From contig QNDZ01000013.1 in the NCBI GenBank assembly GCA_003646055.1, forward strand, positions 1-17,157: DNA of 17,157 bases. Reading direction: 5' to 3'. The notes beneath the pieces are model-generated. The model ran no database searches, had not been told where the DNA came from, and saw only the letters and a list, made by a program, of their open reading frames with translations. Positions within the stretch are counted from its first letter, which is position 1; the number at the start of each line of letters is the position of its first letter. Source of the stretch: a bacterium (lineage in GTDB: Bacteria > Hydrothermota > UBA3072 > B12-G15). Positions 1,271 to 15,658 of this stretch are shown piece after piece. The translations under genes and the position numbers were made by a program.

Positions 1271-3865
1271 ATGCTACCTAATATAACAAAGCGTTATGAA
1301 ATCCTTGAATGGCTTGGTGGTGGACGGTTTGGTGATGTTTACCTTGTAAGGGATAAACTTATAGACAGGAAGTTTGCCCTGAAGGTTGGGCGTGGTGGTG
1401 GTAACACCGAGGCATTCCTTGAAGAGGCAAGAATTATTTCCCATTTAGAACATAAAAACATAATACGGTTTTTCACAGCAGATATTATTGATGGAAGGAT
1501 TGTTATTGTTACAGAGTATATTGAAGGAAGAACCCTGAGAGAAATAATAGACAGAGATGCACCATTAGACCCTGAAACAGCACTTGATTACGGAAAGCAA
1601 CTCCTTTCGGCACTCACCTATGCCCATAAAAGGGGTGTTATCCATAGAGACCTGAAACCAGAGAATATCATGGTGCTTGATGATGGGAATATAAAGGTGG
1701 TTGATTTTGGCATTGCAAGGATTGGGGAGGGAGACCTCACAGTTTCAATTGCCGGAACACCACCATACATGGCAAGGGAGGTGTGGAAGGGGAAGGCATC
1801 AGAACTTTCAGACCAGTGGTCAGCAGGATTGATTCTCTATGAGATGCTCACTGGAAAGAATCCATTCTTTGGTGAGACACTTGAAGATGTGAGGAAGAAG
1901 ATTTTTAAGGGCAAGATACCCCACATAAACACATATGGAATATCCTTACCATCAAGGATTGGTGAAGCCATAATGAGGGCATTGTCCCCTGACCCTGATA
2001 AAAGGTATCCTGATGTGGGTGTCTTTCTCTCAGAACTCACAATAAAGGATTCAGTCTCTCCACCTGTATATATAAAGAAAAAAGAATTGCGTGGACTTCC
2101 ATATCCCCTTACAGAGGAACAAAGGGAGGCAATTGAGGCAGATGCAAATGTTCTTGTGCTGGGAGGCCCTGGGACAGGTAAGACCTACACACTTATGGCA
2201 AAGGTTGTTCATTTGCTTAAGAAGGGTGTCAGACCAGAGAATATGATTGTAACAACATTCACACTGAGAAACTGGTCTGAACTTGAGAAGAGGATAGGAA
2301 GGGAACTAGGGCACAGGGTGAGGGAGATAATCCTTGGAAACTTCCATCATGTATGTATGATTTTTCTCAAACGGGATATTGGTCTTTTAGGTTTTGGTGA
2401 GGATTTCAGGGTGATTCCTCCCAATATACAGGCAATTTATATGAAGAAGGCCTGTGAGGGGACAGGGGTTGATTACAGGTATGCCACAAACAGGATTTCT
2501 TCTTACAAGGCAAAGGGGATTGACGTGAGAATGGCTGAAACAATTGGGGTTTCTGAAAAGGTTTTGAGGGTATGGAAAAAGTATCAGGAAATATTGAAAA
2601 ATGAAAATTCACTGGATTATGACGATGTTATACTCTATACCATGAAACTCTTTCAGGATGAGGCAGTTACCAGGGAATACAGAAATAGGTTCAGCCATAT
2701 ACTTATTGATGAGTTCCAGGACCTATCCCCTGCCCAGATTTCCATATTGAGGCAGATGTGCGGGGATAATAACAGGATCTTTGCCACTGGCGACGACGAC
2801 CAGATGATCTATGGATGGAGGGGAGCAAACCTCAACAACATCAGAAAATTTGGGGACGGCTTTCCATCTGCAAAGGTTTTCAGGCTCACGAGGTCCTTCA
2901 GGCTTCCGTCCTCAATACAGAGGGCAGCATCCAATCTTATAAGGTTCAATCTTGAGAGGGAAGAAAAGGTTGTTATTCCAAGGGATTTCAATGATAAATC
3001 TTCTATAATCATAAAGCAGTTTTCAAAACAATCTGGTGAGGCATCCTTTGTTGCATCCGAGATAAAAAAACTTGTGAAGGCTGGATATAACTATTCTGAT
3101 ATAGCAGTGATTTACAGGGTTAACTATCTTTCAAGGGGGCTATCGGAGGCGTTCAAAAAGAGTGGGATACCCCATTCCTTTGTTGGTGGTGGTTTTTACG
3201 AGAGAAAAGAGATAACAGGGCTTATAAGTGTTCTTGAATACATTGCCTATGGTGGAAAGACCAGACTTTTCAAAGCCCTGTTGTATCCAGAAGGGGGGAA
3301 GGCTTCCAGAAAAAAGACGGACATTGAACAGATACTGAAAAAAAAGGAAATGAAGAAAAAATACCAGATACTTGAAAATATAAGAGGTGCTTCTCCAGGG
3401 ATAACAACAACTATCCGTTCTGTGATTGATTTCTTTAATATTGTCAGGTATTACACAGACAGAGAGGGTGGGCTTGAGAGCCTTGAAAACATAAATGAAT
3501 TCCTGAAGGCAGGTGAGGAGTTTGAGGAGAGGTTTCCAGAAAAGTCACTGAAGAAGTTTCTTGAATACATACAGGAGGTTTCAAGGGCAGGGGTTTCAGG
3601 TCAGGAAGGAGTGAACCTGATGACTGTCCACTCGGCAAAGGGTCTTGAATTTCCAGTTGTTTTCATTTATGCTTTAAGGGATGGTGTTTTTCCACTCCTC
3701 AGGAGTTTGAGCACCAGGGAGGAACTTGAAGAGGAGAGGAGGCTTATGTATGTTGCAATGACAAGGGCCACTGAGAGACTTTATCTTACCTGTTCTGTTT
3801 CAAAGAACAGATTGAGTGGTTCTGATAAACCTTCAAGATTTCTTTCAGAAATCTTTGGACAATAG
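1271..3865 (+). CDS. Ser/Thr protein kinase fused to UvrD/PcrA-type SF1 helicase
   Basis: An 864-residue cytoplasmic two-enzyme fusion. Residues 8-258 are a Hanks-type Ser/Thr kinase: glycine loop GGGRFGDV (16-23), ATP lysine K38, alpha-C glutamate E51 or E52, HRDLKPEN with catalytic D127 and N132, and DFG (145-147). The usual APE is ARE (168-170). Residues 275-864 form a superfamily I helicase: a Q-motif-like LTEEQREAI, Walker A GGPGTGKT (298-305, K304), Walker B LIDEFQDLSPAQ (478-489), motif III TGDDDQMIYGWRGA (507-519), motif IV LTRSFRLP, motif V MTVHSAKGLEF (784-794) and motif VI YVAMTRATERLYL (827-839). All catalytic motifs look intact in both halves. The helicase part is about 590 residues, shorter than typical UvrD (about 720). 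The fusion is one uninterrupted frame with no join artefact visible. It has no upstream ribosome binding site and is probably leaderless. It heads a five-gene coupled operon. The kinase may control the helicase or phosphorylate operon partners; that is inference. Confidence 0.93.
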   Translation: MLPNITKRYEILEWLGGGRFGDVYLVRDKLIDRKFALKVGRGGGNTEAFLEEARIISHLEHKNIIRFFTADIIDGRIVIVTEYIEGRTLREIIDRDAPLDPETALDYGKQLLSALTYAHKRGVIHRDLKPENIMVLDDGNIKVVDFGIARIGEGDLTVSIAGTPPYMAREVWKGKASELSDQWSAGLILYEMLTGKNPFFGETLEDVRKKIFKGKIPHINTYGISLPSRIGEAIMRALSPDPDKRYPDVGVFLSELTIKDSVSPPVYIKKKELRGLPYPLTEEQREAIEADANVLVLGGPGTGKTYTLMAKVVHLLKKGVRPENMIVTTFTLRNWSELEKRIGRELGHRVREIILGNFHHVCMIFLKRDIGLLGFGEDFRVIPPNIQAIYMKKACEGTGVDYRYATNRISSYKAKGIDVRMAETIGVSEKVLRVWKKYQEILKNENSLDYDDVILYTMKLFQDEAVTREYRNRFSHILIDEFQDLSPAQISILRQMCGDNNRIFATGDDDQMIYGWRGANLNNIRKFGDGFPSAKVFRLTRSFRLPSSIQRAASNLIRFNLEREEKVVIPRDFNDKSSIIIKQFSKQSGEASFVASEIKKLVKAGYNYSDIAVIYRVNYLSRGLSEAFKKSGIPHSFVGGGFYERKEITGLISVLEYIAYGGKTRLFKALLYPEGGKASRKKTDIEQILKKKEMKKKYQILENIRGASPGITTTIRSVIDFFNIVRYYTDREGGLESLENINEFLKAGEEFEERFPEKSLKKFLEYIQEVSRAGVSGQEGVNLMTVHSAKGLEFPVVFIYALRDGVFPLLRSLSTREELEEERRLMYVAMTRATERLYLTCSVSKNRLSGSDKPSRFLSEIFGQ

Positions 3866-3873
3866 GAGGAGGT

Positions 3874-4752
3874 ATGATTGAGAAGTTTATTGCATCACTG
3901 GACAAAGGTGAGGCATTCTTTGAAGGGAATGTATTGTTTGTACCCATCAAGGGAGAGGACAGGGGAAACGGTGTTTCTGTTCTTGATGAATCAATAGCAG
4001 AGGGAACCCTTGAAGTGAAGGACCCGGGTGTAATTGAGACGGCTGTGATTGATTATCGCGGGAATAATCCACTCTTTGTTATGGATGGCGAGGAGATTGT
4101 TGGGGCAAGGCAGAACAGGATTTTTGCCACATCTTTTTTAACCGAAAGGGTGGAAGACTTTCGTGTCCCTGTTGTGTGCGTGGAGGAAGGGAGGTGGGAA
4201 GATGGAACCTATTTTGCAACAGGCACGGTCTGTGCCAATCCCCAGATAAGGTCTGTGATTGCAACAACAACATTCAAAAGCCTTAAAAAGAGGAAAGGAT
4301 TCAGGCCCGACCAGAAACTCGTGTGGAAGGAGGTGAGAAAGACCCTTGACAGGTTGAATGTGCAGTCAAAAACACTATCCCTTCATGATGTTTACAACAG
4401 GGGTATGTCCCTGTTTACAACAGATTATACCCCTGATGAAGATACCATAGGAATAATGGGTTTTGATGGGGAGGGATTCACGGGTATGGATGTTTTTTCA
4501 TCCCATGCAATCTTCAAAAAACTCTCAAAAAAGATTATCCAGAGTTATCTTATGGGTTCATGGGGTATAAGGGGCAAGTTTCCCACAGCACCAGAGCCAT
4601 TGAAAGAGATTGAAGGGCTTGAAGACTGGAAGGAGTTTCCATCCATCGGGCTTGGAAGGGAATACAGGACAGAGAATAGAGATAAGGTGGCAAAGGCACT
4701 TGTTGATAATGATAAGGTGGTTCATCTTTCAATATTCAGGAGAACAGTATGA
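3874..4752 (+). CDS. ARPP-1 / DUF6569-like protein
   Basis: A 292-residue soluble protein with no signal peptide or membrane segment. The central block PLFVMDGEEIVGARQNR (66-82), then a VPVVCVEEGRW stretch (98-108), matches what I remember of the ARPP-1/DUF6569 family. That family is named for genomic association with ADP-ribosylglycohydrolase and rhodanese-phosphatase proteins, and its biochemical function is not established. C102, E104, E105 and W108 look like the conserved core. A strong ribosome binding site (GGAGGAGG) fills the 8-base gap after the helicase stop, and the 3' end overlaps the next start (ATGA). Its position between a kinase and a nuclease suggests a partner or regulator, possibly in nucleotide or phosphate signalling. 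The family call is from pattern recognition and the role is unknown. Confidence 0.75.
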   Translation: MIEKFIASLDKGEAFFEGNVLFVPIKGEDRGNGVSVLDESIAEGTLEVKDPGVIETAVIDYRGNNPLFVMDGEEIVGARQNRIFATSFLTERVEDFRVPVVCVEEGRWEDGTYFATGTVCANPQIRSVIATTTFKSLKKRKGFRPDQKLVWKEVRKTLDRLNVQSKTLSLHDVYNRGMSLFTTDYTPDEDTIGIMGFDGEGFTGMDVFSSHAIFKKLSKKIIQSYLMGSWGIRGKFPTAPEPLKEIEGLEDWKEFPSIGLGREYRTENRDKVAKALVDNDKVVHLSIFRRTV

Positions 4753-5543
4753 TAGTGATACTTTTATCCTTAATTCAGGTGTTTTTCTCGCCCAATGGTG
4801 GGTGTAAGGATGCAGTATTAAAGGAGATAAATTCTGCAAAAAGGAGTGTTCAGGTTGCTGTTTATCTTTTGACAGACAGGGAGATATCAAATGCCCTTCT
4901 GAATGCAAAGGAAAGGGGGGTTGATGTAAAGGTTGTTCTGGACGGAGAGCAGGCAGATGAAATTTCCTATTCAAAGCACATCTATTTGAAAAAACATGGG
5001 GTTGATGTCAGGCTTGTTTATCCAGGAAAGAGTGGAAAGGGGATTATGCATCACAAGTTTGCAGTGATTGATAAAAAAACACTTCTAACTGGTTCATTCA
5101 ACTGGACACCAACGGCGGATAGATACAACCACGAGAATCTTTTAGTTATTAAAAAAAATAAAAAACTTTTGAAGAAGTTTCTTGCTGAATTCAAAAGATT
5201 GTACAAAAAGGGGGTACCTGTGGAGATTGAAACAAAGGTTGTGAATGGCAATAACACGCGAGAGGTAAAGGACTATGTTGGAAGAACTGTTTATGTGAAG
5301 GGTAAGGTTTATAACTGGCACATATCCAGAAAGGGCAATCTCTTTATTGATTTTGGGAAGACAAGAAAGTCCTTCACCTTTGTTATGTGGAGTGAGGGTG
5401 TAAAGGAGTTAAAAAAGAGAGGTTTTCCCTTTGAGAAACTTGACAATGGGTATGTCAAGGTTTATGGAAAAATCATTGACCATCCAAAATACGGGCTAGA
5501 AATCTTAACCGATGACCCTGATGCTATTGAGATTGTAAAATGA
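4749..5543 (+). CDS. Phospholipase D-like nuclease with C-terminal OB-fold domain, probably exported
   Basis: A 264-residue protein. Residues 1-19 form a hydrophobic start that looks like a short signal sequence without the usual positive N-region. Residues 20-155 are a single PLD-type domain with a complete HKD motif, HHKFAVID (H101, K103, D108), followed by TGSFNWT (114-120) and an asparagine/glutamate strand (NHENLLVI). Proteins with one HKD usually dimerise to form the active site, as in Nuc-type nucleases and the mitochondrial MitoPLD family. Residues 170-264 read as an OB-fold (YVGRTVYVKGKVYNWHISRKG onward), similar in style to nucleic-acid-binding domains attached to secreted nucleases such as YhcR. 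A DNA or RNA nuclease is therefore likelier than a lipase. The ATG overlaps the upstream stop by 4 bases and has AGGAG six bases before it. Confidence 0.8.
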   Translation: MIVILLSLIQVFFSPNGGCKDAVLKEINSAKRSVQVAVYLLTDREISNALLNAKERGVDVKVVLDGEQADEISYSKHIYLKKHGVDVRLVYPGKSGKGIMHHKFAVIDKKTLLTGSFNWTPTADRYNHENLLVIKKNKKLLKKFLAEFKRLYKKGVPVEIETKVVNGNNTREVKDYVGRTVYVKGKVYNWHISRKGNLFIDFGKTRKSFTFVMWSEGVKELKKRGFPFEKLDNGYVKVYGKIIDHPKYGLEILTDDPDAIEIVK

Positions 5544-6088
5544 TACAACTAATAAATGCTTACAAAAAGAAAGAGAAGATTGCCCAGTTAAAATCCTTCC
5601 TTGAAAGGGTTGCTCCAGTGAGAGTAACCCCATTCAGGATTGTTGAGGCCGTTTCGTGTGCTGTGATTTCAGGTTCAGAGAGGATTATAACAGAGGAAGG
5701 CATACTTCCATCAGCAGAGGATTTTCTTTTAAAGGTGAAGGTTCCTGTTATAGGGATATGCTATGGCATGCAGCTTATATCCTGTGTTTTTGGTGCACAG
5801 ATTGAAAGTGGAGACAATATAAAGGGTTTGAGGAAGGTCAAAATTATCAGGGAGAATCTGTTGACCACTGGACTTCCCCAGGAGGTGATGCTCCCTGAAA
5901 GCCACAGGGAGAGGATTATTTCAGTATCAGATAAACTTGAGATTTTTGCAGTTTCAAAAGCAGGTATTGAACTTGTTAAGGTCAAAGGCAGGGATATTTA
6001 TGGAACCCAGTTCCACTTTGAACGGTCAAAAAAATACGGATACATAGTTTTGAAAAACTTTCTCAGAATATCAGGAGAGGATGTATAA
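5540..6088 (+). CDS. Class I glutamine amidotransferase domain protein
   Basis: A 182-residue cytoplasmic protein with the class I (triad) glutamine amidotransferase fold. The nucleophile elbow is GICYGMQL (C74), and the histidine/glutamate part is GTQFHFE (H159, E161), where most relatives have FHPE. ESHRERI (120-126) corresponds to the conserved SH segment of the GMP synthase type. It is a stand-alone domain of about the size of archaeal GMP synthase glutaminase subunits or anthranilate synthase component II. No partner synthetase is nearby, so the ammonia acceptor is unknown; a gamma-glutamyl hydrolase role is possible. The start overlaps the upstream stop by 4 bases (ATGA) with little ribosome binding site of its own, suggesting translational coupling. 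Its 3' end overlaps the transpeptidase gene by 8 bases. Confidence 0.8.
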   Translation: MIQLINAYKKKEKIAQLKSFLERVAPVRVTPFRIVEAVSCAVISGSERIITEEGILPSAEDFLLKVKVPVIGICYGMQLISCVFGAQIESGDNIKGLRKVKIIRENLLTTGLPQEVMLPESHRERIISVSDKLEIFAVSKAGIELVKVKGRDIYGTQFHFERSKKYGYIVLKNFLRISGEDV

Positions 6089-7130
6089 GCGAATAATAAC
6101 AAGATTTCTCATCTTTTCCCTGATTGCAGGAGCCTCTTTTTATGTTGAGAGAACAGAGAGACTCCACTCACCTTACACTATTCTGAAACATTATTCATCT
6201 TTTGAAAAGAAAAAGAATGGTTACTCTGTCAGGTTTTTGAGGAGGTATGGACTCAGCTTTGATAGGTCAATCCAGTCATACTTAGAAAAAAGGATGTCCC
6301 GTTATAAAACAGGGTATATAGATGTTATAATGATTGATGTGAGAAAGAAAAAGATGATTGCCTTCTATGACAGGGGTGGTGTATTCAATAAGTCATTAAA
6401 GGCAGCCTCCATATTCAAGGTTTTCACCCTGATTGCTGGTTTGACCTCAGATTCCATTGGCCCCTTTGACCCTGTTGAATACAGGGGTAATCCACATTCC
6501 TCAAACCCGGAATACTGGACCAATGGGAGAAGGAGGATAAAATCCCTTTCAGATGCATTCGGCGAGTCAAGCAATCCTGCATTTGCACTTCTTGGTGAGG
6601 GGGTGGGTGAAGAAAATATCATAGAGACATGCAGGAACCTGCTCCTTGGTACAAACATAATGGATGTGGTATCAGGATATATAAATGAATCAACAGATGT
6701 AAAATTGCTTGCACCAGGGCTTAAGGGAAGTTACATTTCACCCCTGTATGCATCAATCCTCGCATCAGGTATAGCAAATGATGGTGTTTTTTTTATCCCT
6801 GAGATTGTTTCCGGAACAGGCTACATATCCCTTGGACGAATGATTGACAACGATGTTGCAGCATGGACAAGGCATATTTCAAGGGGTACGGTGATTGATG
6901 GCACTGCAAGGCATTATTACAAAAAATTAAAAACAAAAATAGAAATGGGGGGTAAAACTGGTTCAATAACAGGGATTGACCCACCAGGCTGGTACGAATG
7001 GTTTGTTGGATGGGCTCCTGTGGATACCCCGCTTGTTGCAGTGGTTGTCTTTGCTGTTCACGATAGTATAAAGTATTTTTCACCCGCAGAGGTGGGCTTA
7101 TATATGATGAACAGGTATCTGAAAAAATAA
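6081..7130 (+). CDS. Minimal penicillin-binding protein transpeptidase
   Basis: A 349-residue membrane-anchored protein. Residues 4-21 are a single N-terminal signal anchor, and the rest should face the periplasm. The three active-site motifs of the penicillin-binding transpeptidase fold are present: SIFK (110-113, nucleophile S110), SSN (163-165) and GGKTGS (290-295, K292). GWYEWFVGWAP (303-313) is the strand that usually follows KTG. About 80 residues separate the anchor from the catalytic fold, so the large pedestal/dimerisation domain of class B enzymes such as FtsI is missing. It probably cross-links or trims peptidoglycan (DD-transpeptidase or carboxypeptidase). It is unlikely to be a beta-lactamase because the late strand is PBP-like. 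The ATG lies inside the end of the amidotransferase gene with AGGAG (6073-6077) just upstream. Why an envelope enzyme closes a kinase-helicase operon is not clear. Confidence 0.85.
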   Translation: MYKRIITRFLIFSLIAGASFYVERTERLHSPYTILKHYSSFEKKKNGYSVRFLRRYGLSFDRSIQSYLEKRMSRYKTGYIDVIMIDVRKKKMIAFYDRGGVFNKSLKAASIFKVFTLIAGLTSDSIGPFDPVEYRGNPHSSNPEYWTNGRRRIKSLSDAFGESSNPAFALLGEGVGEENIIETCRNLLLGTNIMDVVSGYINESTDVKLLAPGLKGSYISPLYASILASGIANDGVFFIPEIVSGTGYISLGRMIDNDVAAWTRHISRGTVIDGTARHYYKKLKTKIEMGGKTGSITGIDPPGWYEWFVGWAPVDTPLVAVVVFAVHDSIKYFSPAEVGLYMMNRYLKK

Positions 7131-7219: not shown

Positions 7220-7250
7220 AAGTGGGGGTAGATGCCCCCACTTTTATTTT
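7220..7250. terminator. Convergent hairpin terminator
   Basis: AAGTGGGGG (7220-7228) and CCCCCACTT (7235-7243) form a perfect 9-base-pair stem with a six-base loop, followed on the plus strand by TTATTTTAA. It ends the plus-strand kinase operon. It sits directly after the stop of the minus-strand secreted protein, whose TAA is at 7244-7246, so it may serve both directions. On the minus strand the following sequence is pyrimidine-rich but not a clean T-run. Nothing else was seen between 7131 and 7219. Confidence 0.8.
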
Positions 7251-10200
7251 AATAGTATTATCTTTTTCAGTAGCAGGGGCTTACCGTCCTTTTTAATACT
7301 GATGAAGTAAACCCCATTTTTCATACTATATGAATACACCCTGATTTTTCCGGAGTTCAAAACCCTGTATTTTTCATTCAAGACACATCTTCCTGTAATA
7401 TCAAAGAGTTTTATATCCACATTGCCAGGCCTTGCAATCTCCATATAAACGGGGATACTGTTTCCAGTGAGTATGGAGGAATTGAGAATTGCAAGGTCTC
7501 TGTCTTTCAAGGTGTTTTGCTCAACAAAAACTGGTTCTGGTGGTTCTGGATGGTATGGGTCAGAGTTTGTGCTTCCGTAATACCAGGCAAGGAGTGCATC
7601 GTAGATCTGCCTTGCACCTGGCACATATCCCATTGAATAAACAGTATCCCTTCCTCCATTCATACCATATCCAACACCCGTTCCAAACACGAATTTTAAT
7701 GTCTCCCCATCTACAATGGTGAATGGTCCCATGCTTATATAAAACCTGTAATCAAACTCATCTGCACCAAGGTCGTATGGGTGGGGTTTCTGTCTGAACC
7801 CGTAGAGATGTTCGCTTGTTCCATCCATGAATCTATATTTTGCCTCATCCGTTCCAGGGTCTTCATCCCAGTTCCACCATCCATATGTAGCAGGCCTTAT
7901 AATCCTTGCAGTATCTCCATATGCATCAATAAATATAGAATCTGAACCTGATGGAGGTGCGTAGATGAATCCACCAAAGATATAACCAGGGGAAAGTCCA
8001 TTATCACCTGTATCGTTTTCAGGGGTTTCAGGGTCGTCAGAGTCGTACATGAATGCCATGTTCCTCCACACAAGGAGTGTATCTCCATGAACAGTGGTTT
8101 CATCAGGGTCATCACCAAAAAGTGTTGCCTCATCATACACCCCATCGCTTCCAATCAGTGTTGTATCCCTCATGATTGTTAATGTATCAACAGGTGAAGG
8201 GAAGTGGGGAAGGGTATTCCAGGCATTCCCTGTCCATCCATCAAAGTGGACAAGGTCATCAATGTGTGGGCTTGAAGGGTCAGCAGAAGAGATATCTGCA
8301 TCAAAGATTATGGCAAAGTAAACATCTTCAAGTGTATCAGGAAGCCCTGCCATTCCATTTGATTTATTATAGATAACATAGAATTCATACAGTTTTGCAT
8401 TCCTCAGTAGGGGGTCTGTATCCCATCCAATTGCCTCCTGTATGATTTTAATTCCAAGGGGATGTGGGTTTGAATAGTAAGTTCCATAGTCAATAAAACT
8501 TGAAACAATGTCAAGGTCACCCTTTGATGCATTCGCATCAATCCATGATGGGTTGTCTGGACTGAATTCATATTCACCATACCCGGCGTGGGAAACATAG
8601 AAGTTTGAGCCTATTTTTGTTCCCACCCATATCCTTCCTTCCCAGAGATAATAACACCCAGCATACCATGGCCAGTCATAGGACGGATTCCCGGTACTTC
8701 CTGCATTTGGATCACCCAAAATACCACAATTACTCACAACTGTCCTCAAAATTCCTGCATCATGAGTAACAAATCCAGGGTCATTTGATGAGGGGAGCAA
8801 AGTTTTGCTCAGGGTTGCCTTTGCCATCCTGGACTCCACTGTATCATAGACACAGGTTACCCCATAGGTGATACTACTATCAGAACCCGCCAGTGTATCT
8901 ATGTAACTGGTTGTTTGCAGATTGCTTGCAATCAATGTGAAATCAGTTTCATTTAACCTCTTTCTGTAAATATTATATGTATGATTTTGTTTTCCACCCC
9001 GGTACTCTGGAGGGGCAAAGTTGATATAACCCTTTTCATTCATAAGTCTTCCTGACACCATTGCTGGTGGTGGGTACATGGTGGGGTGCGCAACAACTGT
9101 GTCTGTGGATGGGCTTTCACCCCTGCTGTAAAGGGCTGTTACATAGTAGTAGTATGTGGATTCGTTCTGGACAGTATTATCAATATAGTGGCAGGAATCA
9201 ACACTTGCAATTACATTAAAAACCATGGATGTGCTTTCAGCCCTGTAGATGTTGTATTGCAGAAAGTATTTACTGCTTGTTGCAGGTGGTTTATTCCACT
9301 TAAGTTCAGCCATGCCATCTGCATAGGGATTTAATATTCTCAAAGAGGTTGGTGGAAGAAGCACAGGAGGCAGGGTGTCAATTTTAATTTTTGAACCTAT
9401 TTTGCCCAGACCTGGGAAGAATGCAATGAAAGAATCACTGGGTGAGAAGTAGATTTCCGCCTCATTGTGTGTTCCAAGGTCAATATCCTCATAGGTGGAA
9501 TCAGAACCACACCTTACAATCCTCAATCTTCCAGGAACATTCAAGGTTGCATTGAAGAGAATGGTATTATTTGAAGACCTTATGCTGAATTTATAACCTA
9601 ATATCTTAAGGTAAGCAGGTTCTCCAGTAGTGTAGGGGAGTGAACCAATGTTTCTGAGATACACTGTTGTGCTACACAGGGAAAGTTCATTGAGGAAGCA
9701 GGACGAACGAAATTCAGGGAAAATGTCGTCAAAGAAGGTGAGTGCGTATCCTGAATCAGAGAGGGTTGAATCAATGGATGGTATATCATTTATTGGGTTT
9801 TGCAAAAGCCCTTTAAGGAAGCCACTCCCGAATTTTTCAAAGAGATAGAGTGAAAAAACAAAGGATTCTTTAGAATTATACAGATCGGTCAGCCCTGTAT
9901 AGATGCCTGCAAAATTGCCCTCACCTGTTCCTGTGAGATACCATCCATACCATTCATACATGGTTTTAAGGAAGTCTTCCTCATCAGGGTCATAACCATT
10001 GTGAATCAGGTCTGTGATTGAATAGGTGATGTTTTTCTGCGCATTCTCACTGCTGGAAAGCAAGGGATAGTCCACATATATTACATCGCATTTATTGGAA
10101 TGGGGGTCAAGTGTATCATGGTCAACAGGGTTGAAGTAGGAGTAACACCAGTTTGAACTCCAGTAATTCTTGTCATATATATCAAGGAGCAAAACCTTTA

Positions 10201-11377
10201 TCTTTCCATCACCATCAATGTCAGGAAGGTCACCCAGTTTATCTGTTAGTACATCTATTATGCCCATTGAAGGATTTGCTGGTGTATGGGCTTTGAGCCA
10301 TGCAAAAACAGTATCTGCATTTTCAGGAAGGGGTTCAAAAAGATATGTTTTTTCCCAGGATGTACCCCCGTAGTTTATGAAGGGACCGTTTTCATTGAGC
10401 AGGAAGATTGTATCAGGTAGTATACTTGAGATTGCAATAATATTATTCACATAAGGTTCAGCACCAATATCAGTGAGATTCCATGTGATGTCTGTGAATG
10501 TATTACCACCATCTGTTGACCTGAATATTCCATTGTGCGTTCCTGCATAGACTATGGATTCATCATTGTATGATGCAGTGATTGAGGTTACAGAGTCAGA
10601 AATGCTTGAGTGATACCAGTTTGCCCCCATGTCATTTGTGTAGTAGACACCAGTGGGTGTTCCAACCCAGATGGTTGAATCTGTATTATGGGATACATGG
10701 AAGCACAGGATATTTTTATCAGGGAGTGTGGTTGAAAGTTCAATGAACTGTGAATCAGGACCCGACCAGAGGAACACACCATTGGTTGTGGCAATGAATA
10801 CCGAATCATCACCAATATTACTGGGACACAAACCTGTTATTTTACCCATTATGGTGTCAAAGGGAATCATTGAGAAGTGATAGGATGAAGGCACTCTCCT
10901 TGTGTATATTCTTTTCTCGTTTGCCACATAATATCTCAAACGAAAAATAGATGTAGCGTTGTCAGGTGATAAACATGCAGCCACAAATCCTGAATCGTTT
11001 AACTCACTATGATAGTCAACATCTGTCCATGAATCAAAATAAGTTGTGCTTGTATATAGATGTCTGTCAGTGAGCCCGAGCATTCTATAACCATTACCAG
11101 GGCAGTAATAGAGGTCAACAAAGAGCAGGGAGCAGGGTCTTGTCCAGGAAAAGCCTGTTCCTGCCCTATATAGCCCTGAATCTGTCGCAACAAGGAAAAG
11201 ATCTTCTTTGCATTCGGCATCGTAGAATCCCCCAATCTTTGTAAAGGAATATACCTGGACATTGAGTGAATCCAGAGACAGGATAAAGTGTTCCCTGTGG
11301 TAGGATCTGTAAAACCCCTGGTCCTGAACCCAGAAGGTCTCAGGGTTCAGTGAAAGAAGAAGGATTATAAGATTCAT
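7244..11377 (-). CDS. Large secreted propeller / pseudo-peptidase / Fn3 protein with C-terminal sorting domain
   Basis: A 1377-residue exported protein. The start at 11377 is chosen over the ATG 12 bases upstream because that earlier ATG overlaps the ribosome binding site GGAGGTG. A short hydrophobic signal (residues 1-12) follows. Residues about 20-335 carry Asp-box/BNR-type propeller repeats, clearest at 233-256 and 272-296 (STDGGNTF). Residues about 365-520 resemble secreted metallopeptidases of the M6/M30 type, with DIDGDGK (386-392) and the block LIHNGYDPDEEDF, but the expected HExxH is YSITD (452-456), so it is probably inactive. Residues about 671-766 and 767-862 are two Fn3-like domains with the NIYR signature. 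Residues about 870-1290 are an unrecognised beta-rich region. The last 72 residues (VDIKLFDITGR, NGVYFISI, ending in KKIILLK) form a Por/type IX-like sorting domain. It is likely surface-attached or released and may bind proteins or glycans; the ligand is unknown. Confidence 0.85.
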   Translation of the reverse strand: MNLIILLLSLNPETFWVQDQGFYRSYHREHFILSLDSLNVQVYSFTKIGGFYDAECKEDLFLVATDSGLYRAGTGFSWTRPCSLLFVDLYYCPGNGYRMLGLTDRHLYTSTTYFDSWTDVDYHSELNDSGFVAACLSPDNATSIFRLRYYVANEKRIYTRRVPSSYHFSMIPFDTIMGKITGLCPSNIGDDSVFIATTNGVFLWSGPDSQFIELSTTLPDKNILCFHVSHNTDSTIWVGTPTGVYYTNDMGANWYHSSISDSVTSITASYNDESIVYAGTHNGIFRSTDGGNTFTDITWNLTDIGAEPYVNNIIAISSILPDTIFLLNENGPFINYGGTSWEKTYLFEPLPENADTVFAWLKAHTPANPSMGIIDVLTDKLGDLPDIDGDGKIKVLLLDIYDKNYWSSNWCYSYFNPVDHDTLDPHSNKCDVIYVDYPLLSSSENAQKNITYSITDLIHNGYDPDEEDFLKTMYEWYGWYLTGTGEGNFAGIYTGLTDLYNSKESFVFSLYLFEKFGSGFLKGLLQNPINDIPSIDSTLSDSGYALTFFDDIFPEFRSSCFLNELSLCSTTVYLRNIGSLPYTTGEPAYLKILGYKFSIRSSNNTILFNATLNVPGRLRIVRCGSDSTYEDIDLGTHNEAEIYFSPSDSFIAFFPGLGKIGSKIKIDTLPPVLLPPTSLRILNPYADGMAELKWNKPPATSSKYFLQYNIYRAESTSMVFNVIASVDSCHYIDNTVQNESTYYYYVTALYSRGESPSTDTVVAHPTMYPPPAMVSGRLMNEKGYINFAPPEYRGGKQNHTYNIYRKRLNETDFTLIASNLQTTSYIDTLAGSDSSITYGVTCVYDTVESRMAKATLSKTLLPSSNDPGFVTHDAGILRTVVSNCGILGDPNAGSTGNPSYDWPWYAGCYYLWEGRIWVGTKIGSNFYVSHAGYGEYEFSPDNPSWIDANASKGDLDIVSSFIDYGTYYSNPHPLGIKIIQEAIGWDTDPLLRNAKLYEFYVIYNKSNGMAGLPDTLEDVYFAIIFDADISSADPSSPHIDDLVHFDGWTGNAWNTLPHFPSPVDTLTIMRDTTLIGSDGVYDEATLFGDDPDETTVHGDTLLVWRNMAFMYDSDDPETPENDTGDNGLSPGYIFGGFIYAPPSGSDSIFIDAYGDTARIIRPATYGWWNWDEDPGTDEAKYRFMDGTSEHLYGFRQKPHPYDLGADEFDYRFYISMGPFTIVDGETLKFVFGTGVGYGMNGGRDTVYSMGYVPGARQIYDALLAWYYGSTNSDPYHPEPPEPVFVEQNTLKDRDLAILNSSILTGNSIPVYMEIARPGNVDIKLFDITGRCVLNEKYRVLNSGKIRVYSYSMKNGVYFISIKKDGKPLLLKKIILLK

Positions 11378-11380
11378 AAA

Positions 11381-11387
11381 CACCTCC
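11381..11387 (-). promoter_or_regulatory. Ribosome binding site that decides the start of the large secreted protein
   Basis: GGAGGTG on the minus strand lies 3 bases before the ATG at 11377 (GGAGG to ATG spacing 5). The in-frame ATG at 11389 overlaps the first base of this site and has no such signal of its own, so the shorter start is preferred. Confidence 0.75.
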
Positions 11388-11396
11388 ATTGCTAAA

Positions 11397-11642: not shown

Positions 11643-12629
11643 TTATCCCCCGTTGTTCTTTTTCAGGGATTCATTTGCCATCTGGAGAACCTTAACAATC
11701 TTCAGGGCAAACTTTCCATTTGAGACAGGGGTTTTTCTCGTTTTTATGCATTCAACAAAGTGTTCCATCTCCAGTTTTAATGGCTCTGTACCTTCTATCT
11801 TTGGTGCATGTATGTCCCCTGTCCTGTATGTGAGAAGGAATTCTCCATAGTCGTATGGCTCCTTTAACTGGACACCAGAATCGTATATCTTCACCTTCTC
11901 CTGAGGGTTTGTCTCATCGTAAACAATCATCTTTTTGGAACCAACAATAATGGTTCTTCTTATCTTTGATGGGGCGAGCCAGCCCACCTGGATGTCTGCA
12001 ATAACGCCATTATCAAAGATTGTGTGAATGAATGCTACATCAGCAAGTCCATCAAGCACTGCATCCTTACCAACAGCAGATACATGTTTTGGTTCTGTGT
12101 CCATCCATGTGAAGATTATTGAAAAATCATGGGGGGCAAGGTCCCATATTACATTGGCATCCTTTCTATGTATCCCAAGATTCACCCTTGTAGAGGTTAT
12201 ATAATATATATCCCCAACCTCCCCACTCTCTATAATTTCCTTTATCTTCAGAACTGCAGGATTGAACATAAATGTGTGACCAACCATCAGGATTTTGTTC
12301 TTTTCTTCTGCAAGATTCACAAGATCCTCTGCTTCAGTATATGAAACAGTGAGAGGTTTCTCAACAAATACATCCTTATCCCTTTCAAGGGCAAGTTTTG
12401 CCAGTTCATAATGGGATTTCACAGGTGTGGCTATAACAATTGCTCTGACATCAGGGTCATCAATAAAATCACAGGATGTTGTGTACTCTGCATTGGGGAA
12501 TTTTTTCTTTATTATGTCAATCCTTTTTTTGTCCTCATCACACCCAATAACCTCAATATCGGGGATATGTAAAAGATTCCTCAACAGGTTGGGTCCCCAG
12601 TATCCAAGACCAATAACTCCAATCTTCAT
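11643..12629 (-). CDS. Gfo/Idh/MocA-family sugar dehydrogenase, WbpB/WlbA-like
   Basis: A 328-residue NAD(P)-dependent cytoplasmic oxidoreductase. The N-terminal Rossmann fold has GVIGLGYWG (4-12). EKP (90-92) gives the conserved lysine K91, and DLAPHD (163-168) gives the paired aspartate/histidine typical of the family. With its two neighbours it fits the oxidation of the 3-hydroxyl of a UDP-N-acetylglucosaminuronic acid, the step done by WbpB/WlbA before 3-amination. It is the last gene of a four-gene minus-strand operon, with a 3-base gap after the aminotransferase stop. The Gfo/Idh/MocA fold is certain. The exact substrate is inferred from context and could be another nucleotide sugar, or an inositol. 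Confidence 0.87.
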   Translation of the reverse strand: MKIGVIGLGYWGPNLLRNLLHIPDIEVIGCDEDKKRIDIIKKKFPNAEYTTSCDFIDDPDVRAIVIATPVKSHYELAKLALERDKDVFVEKPLTVSYTEAEDLVNLAEEKNKILMVGHTFMFNPAVLKIKEIIESGEVGDIYYITSTRVNLGIHRKDANVIWDLAPHDFSIIFTWMDTEPKHVSAVGKDAVLDGLADVAFIHTIFDNGVIADIQVGWLAPSKIRRTIIVGSKKMIVYDETNPQEKVKIYDSGVQLKEPYDYGEFLLTYRTGDIHAPKIEGTEPLKLEMEHFVECIKTRKTPVSNGKFALKIVKVLQMANESLKKNNGG

Positions 12630-12632
12630 AAA

Positions 12633-13781
12633 TCAACCCCCAGCAAAAAAAGCCCTTATTGTGTCACATACATATTCAACATCAGCATCTGTCATATGTG
12701 GATGTATGGGTAGAGATATAATTTCATCGGCAACCTTTTCAGTTATGGGCAGTGAGATATTTAACTCCTTCAATGGTTCCTGTTTATGGCAGGGAACAGG
12801 GTAATGGATTCCTGCACCAACTCCATTCTCCCTCAGGTAGTTAAAGAGTTCATCCCTTCTCTCTGTCCTTATAACATAGAGATGATACACATGCTTTGCC
12901 TTTTCGTGTTCAACAGGTGTTTTTATGGGGAGGTCAGAGAGATAGTCGTTGTACATCCTTGCAATCATTCTCCTTCTCTCATTCCATTTATCCAGTCTCT
13001 TTAATTTAAGCCTCAGGACTGCTGCCTGTAATTCGTCAAGTCTCCCATTAAAACCAAACATCTCATGGTGATACTTATCCTTCTGACCGTGCTCCCTCAG
13101 CCTTTTCACCATGTATGCAATGTCCGGATCGTTTGTTGTAACGCCTCCTGCCTCTCCAAATGCACCGAGGTTCTTTGAAAAGTAGAAACTGAATCCTGCA
13201 ACATCACCAATGGAGCCGACCTTCCTGCCATTATACTCTGCTCCCTGTGCCTGGGCTGCATCCTCAATAACCTTCAGATTATACTTCTTTGCTATCTCCA
13301 TTATCCTTCCCATACATGCACTCTGCCCGTAGAGATGAACAGGAAGAATAGCACGAACTACTTTCCCGTCAGATTTGTCAATAAGGGTTTCACCGTCAAA
13401 TCTACATTTTGTTTCAATATACTCAAGGATTCTATCAGGGGATATGTTGTATGTATCCTCATTTATATCAACCATTACGGGTTCCGCCCCTGCATGAATA
13501 ATTGCCTCAATAGTGGCAAAGAATGTATGGCTTACAGTTATCACCTTTTCACCAGAATTTACTCCTGCTGCACGTATTGCGTAATGAACTGCTTCAGTAC
13601 CATTCCCAACACCAATACAGTCAGCAACGCCTATATACTCACCAAACTCCTTTTCAAATGTCTGAACATTTGGTCCAAGGTAGAGCCTCATACCTTCAAG
13701 TATTTCTTCCCACATATTAAATAGTTCTTCTTTTATCTCTCTGTACTGAGCCTTAAGGTCAACAAGTGGAACATTCCTCAT
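12633..13781 (-). CDS. DegT/DnrJ/EryC1/StrS-family sugar aminotransferase, WbpE/WlbC-like
   Basis: A 382-residue PLP-dependent aminotransferase acting on 3-keto (or 4-keto) nucleotide sugars. Visible family motifs are [12 protein letters not shown] (60-71), the substrate/PLP stretch SHTFFAT (84-90), EDAAQAQGA (173-181, D174 binds the pyridine nitrogen) and the Schiff-base lysine in [15 protein letters not shown] (K203). The C-terminal [12 protein letters not shown] is the usual product-site motif of the family. The N-terminal [13 protein letters not shown] matches typical starts of the family, so the start is secure. Its start overlaps the stop of the acetyltransferase gene by 4 bases. With the dehydrogenase and acetyltransferase it should supply the 3-amino group of a 2,3-diamino uronic acid. 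A dTDP-3-amino-hexose pathway is the alternative, but no dTDP-glucose genes are seen. Confidence 0.92.
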
Positions 13782-14311
13782 AATGCCCTCCTCACCCTTG
13801 CCTTTTCCCCATAAACAAGTGTTCCCGGTGGAATATCGTCTACTACCACAGAACCAAGACCTATTAAGGCATTCTCACCTATTGTGATACCGCACTTTAT
13901 CACGGAACTTGCACCAATTGCAGCCCCCCTCTTTACAAGCGTAGGAACAATCTCATACTCATCAATCAAACTCCCATCCTCCTTGCAACTCCTCGGGAAT
14001 AAATCATTGGTGAAGACCACGTTGGGACCGAGAAAAACGCAATCTTCAATGGTTACCCCTTCTGGAATGAAAACAAGGGGTTCAATCTTCACCTTTTTCC
14101 CAATCTTTACCCCTTTCCTGATTTCAACAAATGCTCCAATCTTTGTCTTCGCACCAATTTCTGCACCGTAGATATTTACATTACTCCATATAACAACGCC
14201 ATCTCCGAAAACAGTGTCCTTCACTATTATGTTGTATTCAGGTATCAGTATATCCACTGGCGTGTTATCCGGTATCTCCTTTTTTTCACCCCTGATTAGA
14301 ACATATCCCAT
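13778..14311 (-). CDS. Left-handed beta-helix sugar N-acetyltransferase, WbpD/WlbB-like
   Basis: A 177-residue hexapeptide-repeat acyltransferase. A run of [LIV]-G-x-x-x-x turns from about residue 34 to 155 builds the left-handed beta-helix. The loop [13 protein letters not shown] (95-107) matches the conserved FTND/FIND-YPR loop of the WbpD/WlbB type of 3-N-acetyltransferases, which transfer acetyl from acetyl-CoA to UDP-2-acetamido-3-amino-uronic acid. The first 30 residues are a short extension before the helix. GGAGG lies a few bases upstream of the ATG at 14311, after the stop of the sugar transferase (9-base gap). The 3' end overlaps the aminotransferase start. The acyl donor and sugar are inferred from family and context. 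Confidence 0.87.
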
Positions 14312-14320
14312 TAATCCTCC

Positions 14321-15658
14321 TTAGTATGCTCCTTTTCCGAATACTATGTTTGGTATGGTTTGTAGTATAAGATGGATGTCAAGCCAGAATGACCTGTTAT
14401 AGGCATAATAAATGTCAAGAAACACAGATTCATCAAAGGGTAAGAGTGAACGGCCAAATACCTGCCACATACCTGTAATTCCCTGCTTCACAATCAATCT
14501 CAATTTATGCCATTCCTCGTATTCCTTGATTTCATAGTCAAGTGGTGGTCTTGGACCAACAATGGAAAGGTGGCCTTTCAGAACATTGAAAAATTGTGGT
14601 AACTCGTCGAGGCTTGTCTTCCTGAGAAAGTATCCAACAGGTGTTACCCTTGGGTCATTTGTGAGTTTATAAACTTTTCCATCTTTCTTTTCCCCTTTTA
14701 TAAGATTTTTCACATACTTCTTATGCACCTCATCATCTATATTCGTGTACATTGACCTGAATTTGAGCATGGGGAAGGGTTTCATTCTCTCTGTTAGCCT
14801 TGTCTGTTTGAAGAAAACAGGACCTTCTGAGGTGAGCTTGATGATGATGGGAATAAATATGAAGAAGGGCAGAAAGACTATTATTGCCACGATGCTTCCA
14901 ATAATGTCAACAATTCTCTTTGATACAAGATAGACCTTTGACCTGCCAGACCATCTGAATGGAACAAGGGGGATACCAGCAAAGTAGAACCAGTAAGGTA
15001 CACCCCTTATTTTCTTATTAAGTTCTGAATAGACAAAAACTTTCTCTTTATTCATAAAATCACCAAGTTTTTTTAAGAGCACTTCGTAGCCTCCTTTATT
15101 TAAGACAAGGATAAAAGTTATTTTGTTCCCTCTGAACTTTTTGAGTTCTCTCATATTTTTCACAACATCAATAACCTTTATGTTTGCAAATCTGTGGGTT
15201 TTGAAGAATGTATCCAGTCCCATGGCATTCCCATCAGGTGAGTAAATTACAACATTTCTTGAAGGCAAAATCCTTAAAAGCAGTGAATAAATAACTATTC
15301 TCTCAAAGTAAAGGATTGTTGAGAGAACAACAAACAGTGAAAGGATCAAAACCCTTGAATGGTACAGTCCAAACTTAAAGATAAAGGTAACAATAAGATA
15401 GAGGAAGAATGAGTAAAGTATGGACTTGGATGTCCTGAATATGTAACCAATCCTATCAAGATAGGCCATAAAATTGAACATATCTGTATATGCGAAAACA
15501 GATACAATGATTAATGGTATGGAGATCAGGTTGTACCATATGAAAACAGGATGGGAGATATAGTGGATTTTGATTAGCAAATAATAGGTAAACCCCACCC
15601 CCAGCAGGGCTGATGCAACATCAATTATAAGGAATGTAACATCCCTGTCTCTCCACAT
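14321..15658 (-). CDS. Polyprenyl-phosphate sugar phosphotransferase initiating surface glycan synthesis
   Basis: A 445-residue membrane enzyme of the bacterial sugar transferase family (WbaP/WcaJ-type polyprenol hexose-1-phosphate transferases). Four hydrophobic segments occupy about residues 8-29, 39-60, 80-98 and 102-127. A cytoplasmic middle region follows, and then a re-entrant hydrophobic helix (249-273). The catalytic domain has EGPVFFKQTR (278-287), KFRSM (299-303), the TSLDELPQ motif with the conserved D351-E352 pair, VGPRPP (367-372) and the C-terminal GKGAY. It transfers a sugar phosphate from a nucleotide sugar to a lipid carrier as the first step of O-antigen, capsule or exopolysaccharide assembly. 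It leads the operon, and the next three genes make a diamino uronic acid. There is no clear ribosome binding site; a -10-like box ends 6 bases before the ATG, so the message may be leaderless. Confidence 0.92.
   Translation of the reverse strand: MWRDRDVTFLIIDVASALLGVGFTYYLLIKIHYISHPVFIWYNLISIPLIIVSVFAYTDMFNFMAYLDRIGYIFRTSKSILYSFFLYLIVTFIFKFGLYHSRVLILSLFVVLSTILYFERIVIYSLLLRILPSRNVVIYSPDGNAMGLDTFFKTHRFANIKVIDVVKNMRELKKFRGNKITFILVLNKGGYEVLLKKLGDFMNKEKVFVYSELNKKIRGVPYWFYFAGIPLVPFRWSGRSKVYLVSKRIVDIIGSIVAIIVFLPFFIFIPIIIKLTSEGPVFFKQTRLTERMKPFPMLKFRSMYTNIDDEVHKKYVKNLIKGEKKDGKVYKLTNDPRVTPVGYFLRKTSLDELPQFFNVLKGHLSIVGPRPPLDYEIKEYEEWHKLRLIVKQGITGMWQVFGRSLLPFDESVFLDIYYAYNRSFWLDIHLILQTIPNIVFGKGAY

Follow-up and report, generated by a model that had tools for sequence, protein, structure and literature searches.

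What does a bacterium do with a Ser/Thr protein kinase and a DNA helicase in one polypeptide? The question is raised by a gene at 1271..3865 (+) of the stretch analysed here (the window; 17,157 nucleotides, C13:1-17157 of genome G000), whose source genome comprises 1.87 Mb in 277 contigs at 80.6% completeness. Judging from gene neighbourhoods, profile matches, and trees, the pairing of this kinase-helicase gene with a gene of the ARPP-1 family was shown to be conserved in two phyla. In the explanation preferred here, to which we give an even chance as a whole, the gene product would be a soluble kinase-helicase with two intact ATP-using enzymes, forming a two-gene module with an intracellular ARPP-1 enzyme dedicated to it. 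The features concerned are:

1271..3865, forward strand: Ser/Thr kinase-UvrD helicase fusion gene, an open reading frame (ORF) of 864 amino acids from ATG to stop
1295..2041, forward strand: Hanks-type kinase domain (residues about 9-257) with K38, HRD 125-127, DFG 145-147, activation-loop S159, and invariant T163
2042..2107, forward strand: short linker (residues about 258-279)
2108..2863, forward strand: UvrD-helicase N-terminal part (residues 280-531) with Q motif, Walker A 298-305, DEFQD 480-484, and GDDDQ 507-511
2864..3862, forward strand: UvrD C-terminal part (residues 532-864) with R544, R616, motif V 786-794, and motif VI 821-833
3874..4752, forward strand: ARPP-1 (PF20208) gene, 292 amino acids, 8 bp behind the fusion gene (Pfam, 177.6 bits vs. 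cut-off 27)

The uninterrupted 864-codon frame claimed by the sequence-only reading of this DNA was borne out, the frame being stop-free with an ATG start, and the catalytic residues named there (K38, D127, DFG 145-147, Walker A K304, and DE 480-481) were all found in place. Pfam models matched as Pkinase at residues 9-220 (166.9 bits, cut-off 31.7), UvrD-helicase at residues 280-531 (199.9 bits, cut-off 23), and UvrD_C with its best stretch at residues 716-842 (171.8 bits, cut-off 25.6). The kinase core is complete (Gly-rich loop, K, E, HRD-K-N, DFG, and the Glu of APE), and by its helicase motifs and Pfam domains the fusion belongs to the UvrD/PcrA/Rep helicases of superfamily 1A (SF1A). No membrane stretch was detected in the fusion by hydropathy (maximum 19-residue mean 1.37), and no PASTA domain was matched in Pfam. 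As read from these motifs, the fusion is a complete Hanks-type kinase and a complete UvrD/PcrA-type helicase in one chain.

Conservation was counted in 150 distinct fusion sequences, which are related to, and not independent of, one another. In the kinase, D127, N132, D145, F146, and G147 were present in all 150 sequences, K38 in 149 (one gap), and R126, which makes the HRD of RD type, in 146; in the helicase, K304, D480, D484, D508, Q511, R544, R616, G791, E822, and R832 were found throughout (150/150). Position 481 was Glu in 140 sequences and Asp in 10, R517 was Arg in 140 and differed in 10, and G518, H787, and K790 were kept as Gly, His, and Lys in 141, 144, and 147, respectively; position 516 was Trp in 117 and Phe in 33, and activation-loop position 159 was Ser in 122 and Thr in 10 (132/150). 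Such conservation of catalytic residues in aligned fusions is far above chance, and a decayed kinase or helicase was ruled out by core residues that are invariant or nearly so. With the two catalytic halves both intact and jointly conserved, the earlier proposals of phosphorylation-linked unwinding, or of a helicase with its own signalling module, would fit; what they overlooked was the more informative ARPP-1 neighbour.

A protein search yielded 6663 proteins at E <= 0.001 among 8000 scored candidates. Among the best 120 of these 6663, 96 (P0002-P0097, including the fusion's own cluster P0002, 99% identical and with 24 member sequences) were kinase-UvrD proteins at 96-100% query cover and 33-99% identity; the remainder were two partial matches, 18 proteins of a second fusion type (about 960 amino acids), and four matches to one half. 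Named matches among these 120 also came from Aminicenantia, Thermosulfidibacter, Planctomycetes, Synergistetes, and "bacterium JZ-2024 1" metagenome-assembled genomes (MAGs); P0026 bears the name Thermosulfidibacter takaii. By profile search, the fusion was found in at least 63 of 147 genomes of the window's phylum, in 19 family codes; the profile matches reach to about E 1e-122 and short fusion pieces may be missed, hence 63 is a lower bound. It was full-length in 57 of the 63, six of these 57 being single-contig genomes (G105, G106, G115-G118), split over contigs in G008 and G091, partial in G060, G092, and G128, and partial with stops in G070. The phylum is probably WOR-3, for which NCBI now uses Caldifarciminota: proteins assigned to Hydrothermales and WOR-3 MAGs share 100% and 99.9% identity with two of its fusions. 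An additional UvrD-type match was obtained in 48/63 fusion genomes (E 1e-100), so that the fusion is usually an extra helicase.

Absence from close relatives had been named beforehand as a sign of mis-assembly. The fusion was indeed not found in one same-genus genome (75% complete) or in six same-order genomes, but it was present in both same-class genomes listed, in one of them split over two contigs. Mis-assembly or a chance fusion was rejected on the basis of the at least 63/147 phylum genomes, the six single-contig ones, and the core residues conserved in 150 sequences.

Two further phyla were sampled. In the phylum of an Acidobacteriota record (L036, G147; the second phylum), the fusion was found in 5/396 genomes (E <= 1e-180). 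In the phylum of a Schlesneria record (L056, G149; the third phylum), no single-frame fusion past E 1e-170 was found among 392 genomes; three of the 392 carried a separate kinase gene directly before a UvrD gene (L358, L359, L360; Pfam was run on L358, the other two were recognised by motif patterns only), which was counted in favour of the preferred explanation. At L358 (468-4434), a split counterpart of the fusion, an FHA gene follows the neighbouring kinase and UvrD genes.

The pairing with ARPP-1 is carried by several lines of evidence. In the window's phylum, ARPP-1 was detected in 81/147 genomes, i.e., in 60/63 with and 21/84 without the fusion (Fisher p 2.5e-19 across the 147 genomes, ignoring relatedness). 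It lay on the same strand within 1.1 kb of the fusion in 37/63 genomes (the distance being 865 and 1006 bp in two of them); 35 of these genomes have it upstream and two, G000 and G009, downstream, hence the linkage outlasts a change of gene order. In the second phylum, where any ARPP-1 match occurred in 79/396 genomes, it was located directly upstream on the same strand in 5/5 fusion genomes, the two genes overlapping by 4 nt when called from the first start.

ARPP domains of the window's phylum were placed in a tree of 98 rows from 108 ORFs, duplicates and domains under about 180 amino acids having been dropped; the domains were chosen by whole-sequence score, some rows are possibly trimmed, and the tree carries a warning of a join of long branches. 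Outside the tree stayed, among others, the linked copies of G115, G091, G120, and G128 and the fragments or split matches of G063, G137, G054, and G073. The rows split at 100/100 support into a side of 58 rows (58 genomes) and a side of 40 rows. Every linked copy in the tree (33) fell on the 58-row side, along with 25 unlinked ones, 22 of them from fusion genomes; the 40-row side had zero linked copies. A hydrophobic stretch before the ARPP domain was present in 32/40 rows of the latter vs. 2/58 on the fusion side, so the ARPPs of the 40-row side are probably exported. A fusion-type ARPP was thereby assigned to 59/63 fusion genomes (55 by tree and the four linked copies outside it by adjacency), and G063 held an ARPP fragment only. 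Fusion-less ARPP genomes numbered 21: three were placed on the fusion side and 15 on the other, and G054, G073, and G137 were unplaced; fusion-type ARPP therefore occurred in 3/84 genomes without the fusion, with these three further matches unplaced. All 19 fusion family codes had a fusion-type ARPP (f37 by adjacency only), and the 18 other family codes had zero placed ARPPs of this type. The second-phylum ARPPs added to the tree were the five linked copies and 19 of the 20 best-scoring others out of 79, one partial being left out; the five linked copies fell on the fusion side and the 19 unlinked ones did not (quick method). Additionally, fusion and ARPP divergence were correlated beyond the divergence of stand-alone UvrDs (partial Mantel rank r 0.39, p 0.002, 11 genomes).

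At the residue level, Q80, R82, C102, E104, R107, R126, Q147, and W151 of ARPP were found in 98/98 rows, which agrees with the enzyme site that the ARPP section of PMC9503650 proposes along with sugar-directed and possibly SRAP-like covalent chemistry. S169 was invariant on the fusion side (58/58) and replaced by Thr, Ala, or Arg on the other; S169 and H171 are typical of the fusion-side subfamily, S169 being a candidate for a phosphosite or an active-site change.

Regulation purely in cis was weighed against this association, i.e., phosphorylation would gate unwinding, and the ARPP would be an independent enzyme of the same pathway and not a substrate. The kinase indeed abuts the helicase Q motif via a short linker, with an R245-to-Q284 spacing of 35-45 residues in 143/150 fusions and 51-54 in seven. 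The fusion shares its helicase motifs with the PcrA/UvrD/Rep SF1A helicases, its best relative of solved structure being PcrA (1pjr, E 1.2e-85), and differs from them by the N-terminal kinase, a shorter region 640-786, which we take to be the regulatory 2B subdomain, and a shorter C-terminal tail. Compared with stand-alone UvrDs (19 of 25 fetched loci, those passing the motif filter), region 640-786 was about 36 residues shorter (median 141, range 126-167, in 56 fusions vs. 177, range 165-182). The tail that follows R832 had a median length of 32 vs. 99 residues. With the 2B region and the tail shortened, a new regulator may have replaced old ones. However, the ARPP association and the subfamily-specific Ser169 leave trans-phosphorylation open, and regulation in cis only is considered unlikely.

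A second alternative is an anti-phage or conflict system, in which the kinase-helicase would sense invading DNA and the ARPP would act on ADP-ribose or nucleotides. ARPP has been described beside predicted ADP-ribose conflict systems (ARPP section of PMC9503650), and the PADLOC models GajB, RTasHel, PD-T4-6, and mad6 match the fusion, although each matches one half only (among the best 25 of 89 families). The ARPP systems of that section belong to the same Pfam family and share the conserved Cys and Gln with the ARPP-1 of the window; they are ARG/phosphatase systems and two-gene neighbourhoods with HIRAN, WYL, and PF01522, the kinase-helicase being absent from the section. No ADP-ribosylglycohydrolase or rhodanese-phosphatase domain was found among 12 window ORFs, the view being limited by the contig start 237 bp before the upstream gene. 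In a PADLOC scan of seven window ORFs, no GajA was found for a Gabija system, the fusion's neighbours being a pyridoxal phosphate (PLP) enzyme and ARPP-1; mad6 and PglW-type models matched the kinase half alone, DrmC and other phospholipase D (PLD)-type models matched 4749-5543 (best 54 bits), and no further BREX, MADS, or DISARM component was seen within the view that the contig start allows. Against a conflict system stand the frequency of the fusion within families (21 genomes of f11, four of f36, five of f8), the ordinary genes among the scanned neighbours (rhomboid, triosephosphate isomerase (TIM), pantoate ligase, elongation factor P (EF-P), FtsZ), and the mobile-element records: no place covering 80% of the fusion was found in any of 181 matching phage or 3781 matching plasmid records, and no fusion frame in 60 viral loci. 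A phage or plasmid gene is thus unsupported, and a conflict system appears improbable. No fusion frame was seen either in at least 80 contig loci matched by generic kinase patterns. Across 56 clustered loci, no gene besides the fusion and ARPP was common to more than two families; together with the ordinary neighbours, this favours the two-gene module as one of genome maintenance, which is probably its role rather than mobile defence.

In a third alternative, a nucleotide or second-messenger stress module, the ARPP would handle a nucleotide signal on which the kinase-helicase reports. Unlinked fusion-type ARPPs lie by genes for a diadenylate cyclase (f18/f24), RelA/SpoT (f30/f31), or a Nudix protein (f8/f21), and an FHA-GGDEF gene follows in 4/5 second-phylum loci. 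No such neighbour, however, extends beyond two first-phylum families or a single second-phylum group, a pattern expected from shared descent, and the helicase motor half is left unexplained, so this alternative is regarded as very unlikely.

Several points weigh against the two-gene module. ARPP-1 is not beside the fusion in 26/63 fusion genomes, and by profile search no ARPP-1 was found in the fusion genomes G060, G085 (98% complete), and G087 (94%); G064, G084, and G122 carry a fusion-side ARPP with no fusion detected. Shared descent is allowed for in the co-occurrence only by the family count and by the partial-correlation test on 11 genomes, and in the third phylum 0/3 kinase-UvrD pairs had an ARPP-1, in a search in which control genomes were blank as well. 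No solved relative of ARPP-1 was found by sequence, and to our knowledge ARPP-1 has no known activity. Furthermore, which proteins the kinase phosphorylates and in which direction the signal runs are guesses, and the helicase alone could be the regulated step.

In the mechanism proposed for the two-gene module, the helicase half would serve as DNA sensor and motor, and its loading on single-stranded or junction DNA would promote phosphorylation of the kinase activation loop. The active kinase would then phosphorylate its own helicase half and/or the ARPP, whose conserved Cys/Gln site would have as its target a sugar or nucleotide group where DNA is damaged or stalled. Such a DNA-motor-coupled checkpoint, in which the helicase at stalled or damaged DNA activates its own kinase and thereby controls a dedicated ARPP, which would modify or protect a sugar site in DNA or a nucleotide, is put forward tentatively, as a possibility that we would not call probable. 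Most of what is known of Ser/Thr kinases in bacteria concerns membrane sensors, with few examples connected to DNA. A precedent for a DNA-activated Hanks kinase tied to genome maintenance is YabT of Bacillus subtilis, as described in the part of PMC6333020 that deals with it. In both cases a bacterial Ser/Thr kinase is tied to DNA, and the logic is proposed to be similar, in that the motor would sense DNA and the kinase relay the signal; YabT has a basic juxtamembrane segment and a membrane anchor, whereas the DNA-binding part of the fusion would be the helicase.

PknB/StkP-type Hanks kinases have the same complete core, and bacterial Ser/Thr kinases are among the best solved kinase relatives of the fusion, which differs in being joined to a DNA motor and in having no membrane stretch (hydropathy) or PASTA match; against the curated model of the PASTA kinase PknB/Stk1 it scored 209.5 bits, below the cut-off of 450. 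It likewise scored under the NCBIfam cut-offs for pcrA (398 of 911 bits), UvrD (324 of 1144), and Rep (291 of 951).

Searches of the open-licence full text of PubMed Central (PMC) turned up no paper describing a fusion of a Ser/Thr kinase to a UvrD helicase, in agreement with the earlier remark that this architecture is not known from a characterised protein. The relevant mentions in PMC3702460 and PMC7641849 concern other things, and the main text of the WOR-3 genome paper PMC12542636 contains neither "helicase" nor "UvrD". Of the widely described family with known function that had been named as the other refuting outcome, the width was confirmed, but the searches of open-licence PMC full text gave no paper that assigns it a function. 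With the fusion real, intact in at least two deeply separated groups, and usually accompanied by the same partner, fusion and ARPP-1 look like an undescribed DNA-linked signalling pair. No description of checkpoint-type signalling by a helicase-fused kinase was found in the literature searched. A chain that has kept both kinase and DNA motor intact across two or more phyla, together with a regular partner, makes phospho-signalling linked to DNA directly testable in bacteria and offers a lead to the function of one ARPP-1 subfamily.

The origin of the fusion was approached with a tree of 65 helicase parts (quick method, midpoint root, long branches G095 and P0091). The 36 fusions fell on one side of a branch (Shimodaira-Hasegawa-like approximate likelihood ratio test (SH-aLRT) 100), as a clade separate from 26 stand-alone helicases and three fusions of the second type, which is consistent with one origin. 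The window fusion and that of G009 clustered with second-phylum, Aminicenantia, Planctomycetes, and Thermosulfidibacter sequences (SH-aLRT 98), a grouping that suggests transfer between phyla. The second type ("Group 2"; P0100-P0102, P0105-P0118, P0121; about 960 amino acids) has the same domain order, but the three tested fell with stand-alone UvrDs, and it is probably an independent fusion event. It was found full-length in 1/396 second-phylum genomes, with ARPP-1 on another contig. A second-type fusion of about 963 amino acids at L345 (G228) is 79% identical to P0105; in six other genomes of its sample, only its helicase part was matched, at 44-49% identity.

The fusion and ARPP-1 genes are flanked in the window by the following genes:

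238-1215: immediate upstream neighbour of the fusion gene, a PLP enzyme of the D-cysteine desulfhydrase family
4749-5543, forward strand: NucT/DrmC-like protein of PLD type that overlaps the ARPP gene end by 4 bp and has an OB-fold match below threshold
5540-6088, forward strand: class-I glutamine amidotransferase (GATase)-like gene in the overlapping run
6081-7130, forward strand: penicillin-binding protein (PBP) transpeptidase-like gene in the overlapping run

The genes in 4749..7130 (+) are probably co-transcribed with the fusion run. A wider operon including the PLD, GATase, and PBP genes was rejected, as none of them recurred beside the fusion in 16 other loci.

Fusion-type ARPPs apart from the fusion have neighbourhoods of their own: a CdaA-type diadenylate cyclase gene adjoins in five genomes (L235 3296-4054; f18 loci L248, L257, L258, and L260), with an HflX-like GTPase near, a RelA/SpoT gene is near in five genomes (L239 1309-3696 and related loci), and a Nudix gene in seven (L245 3412-3909 and related). 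In four of the five second-phylum loci (L352, L354, L355, L356), an unknown gene, EF-P, and the FHA-GGDEF protein come after the ARPP and fusion genes; rpsL-, rpsG-, and fusA-like genes, judged by eye, lie on the opposite side in four (L353-L356), and FtsA and FtsZ genes are near in three of the five. Another kinase of the window's genome is encoded at G000:C37 7101-9750 (L003, L357), and the genome's only FHA-domain match found lies nearby on the same contig. Elsewhere in the window, a 1381-amino acid protein at 7244-11389 (-) has a sub-threshold C-terminal Por secretion-tail match, and a sugar or glycan cluster at 11643-15658 (-) comprises an oxidoreductase, a DegT aminotransferase, a hexapeptide transferase, and a sugar transferase.

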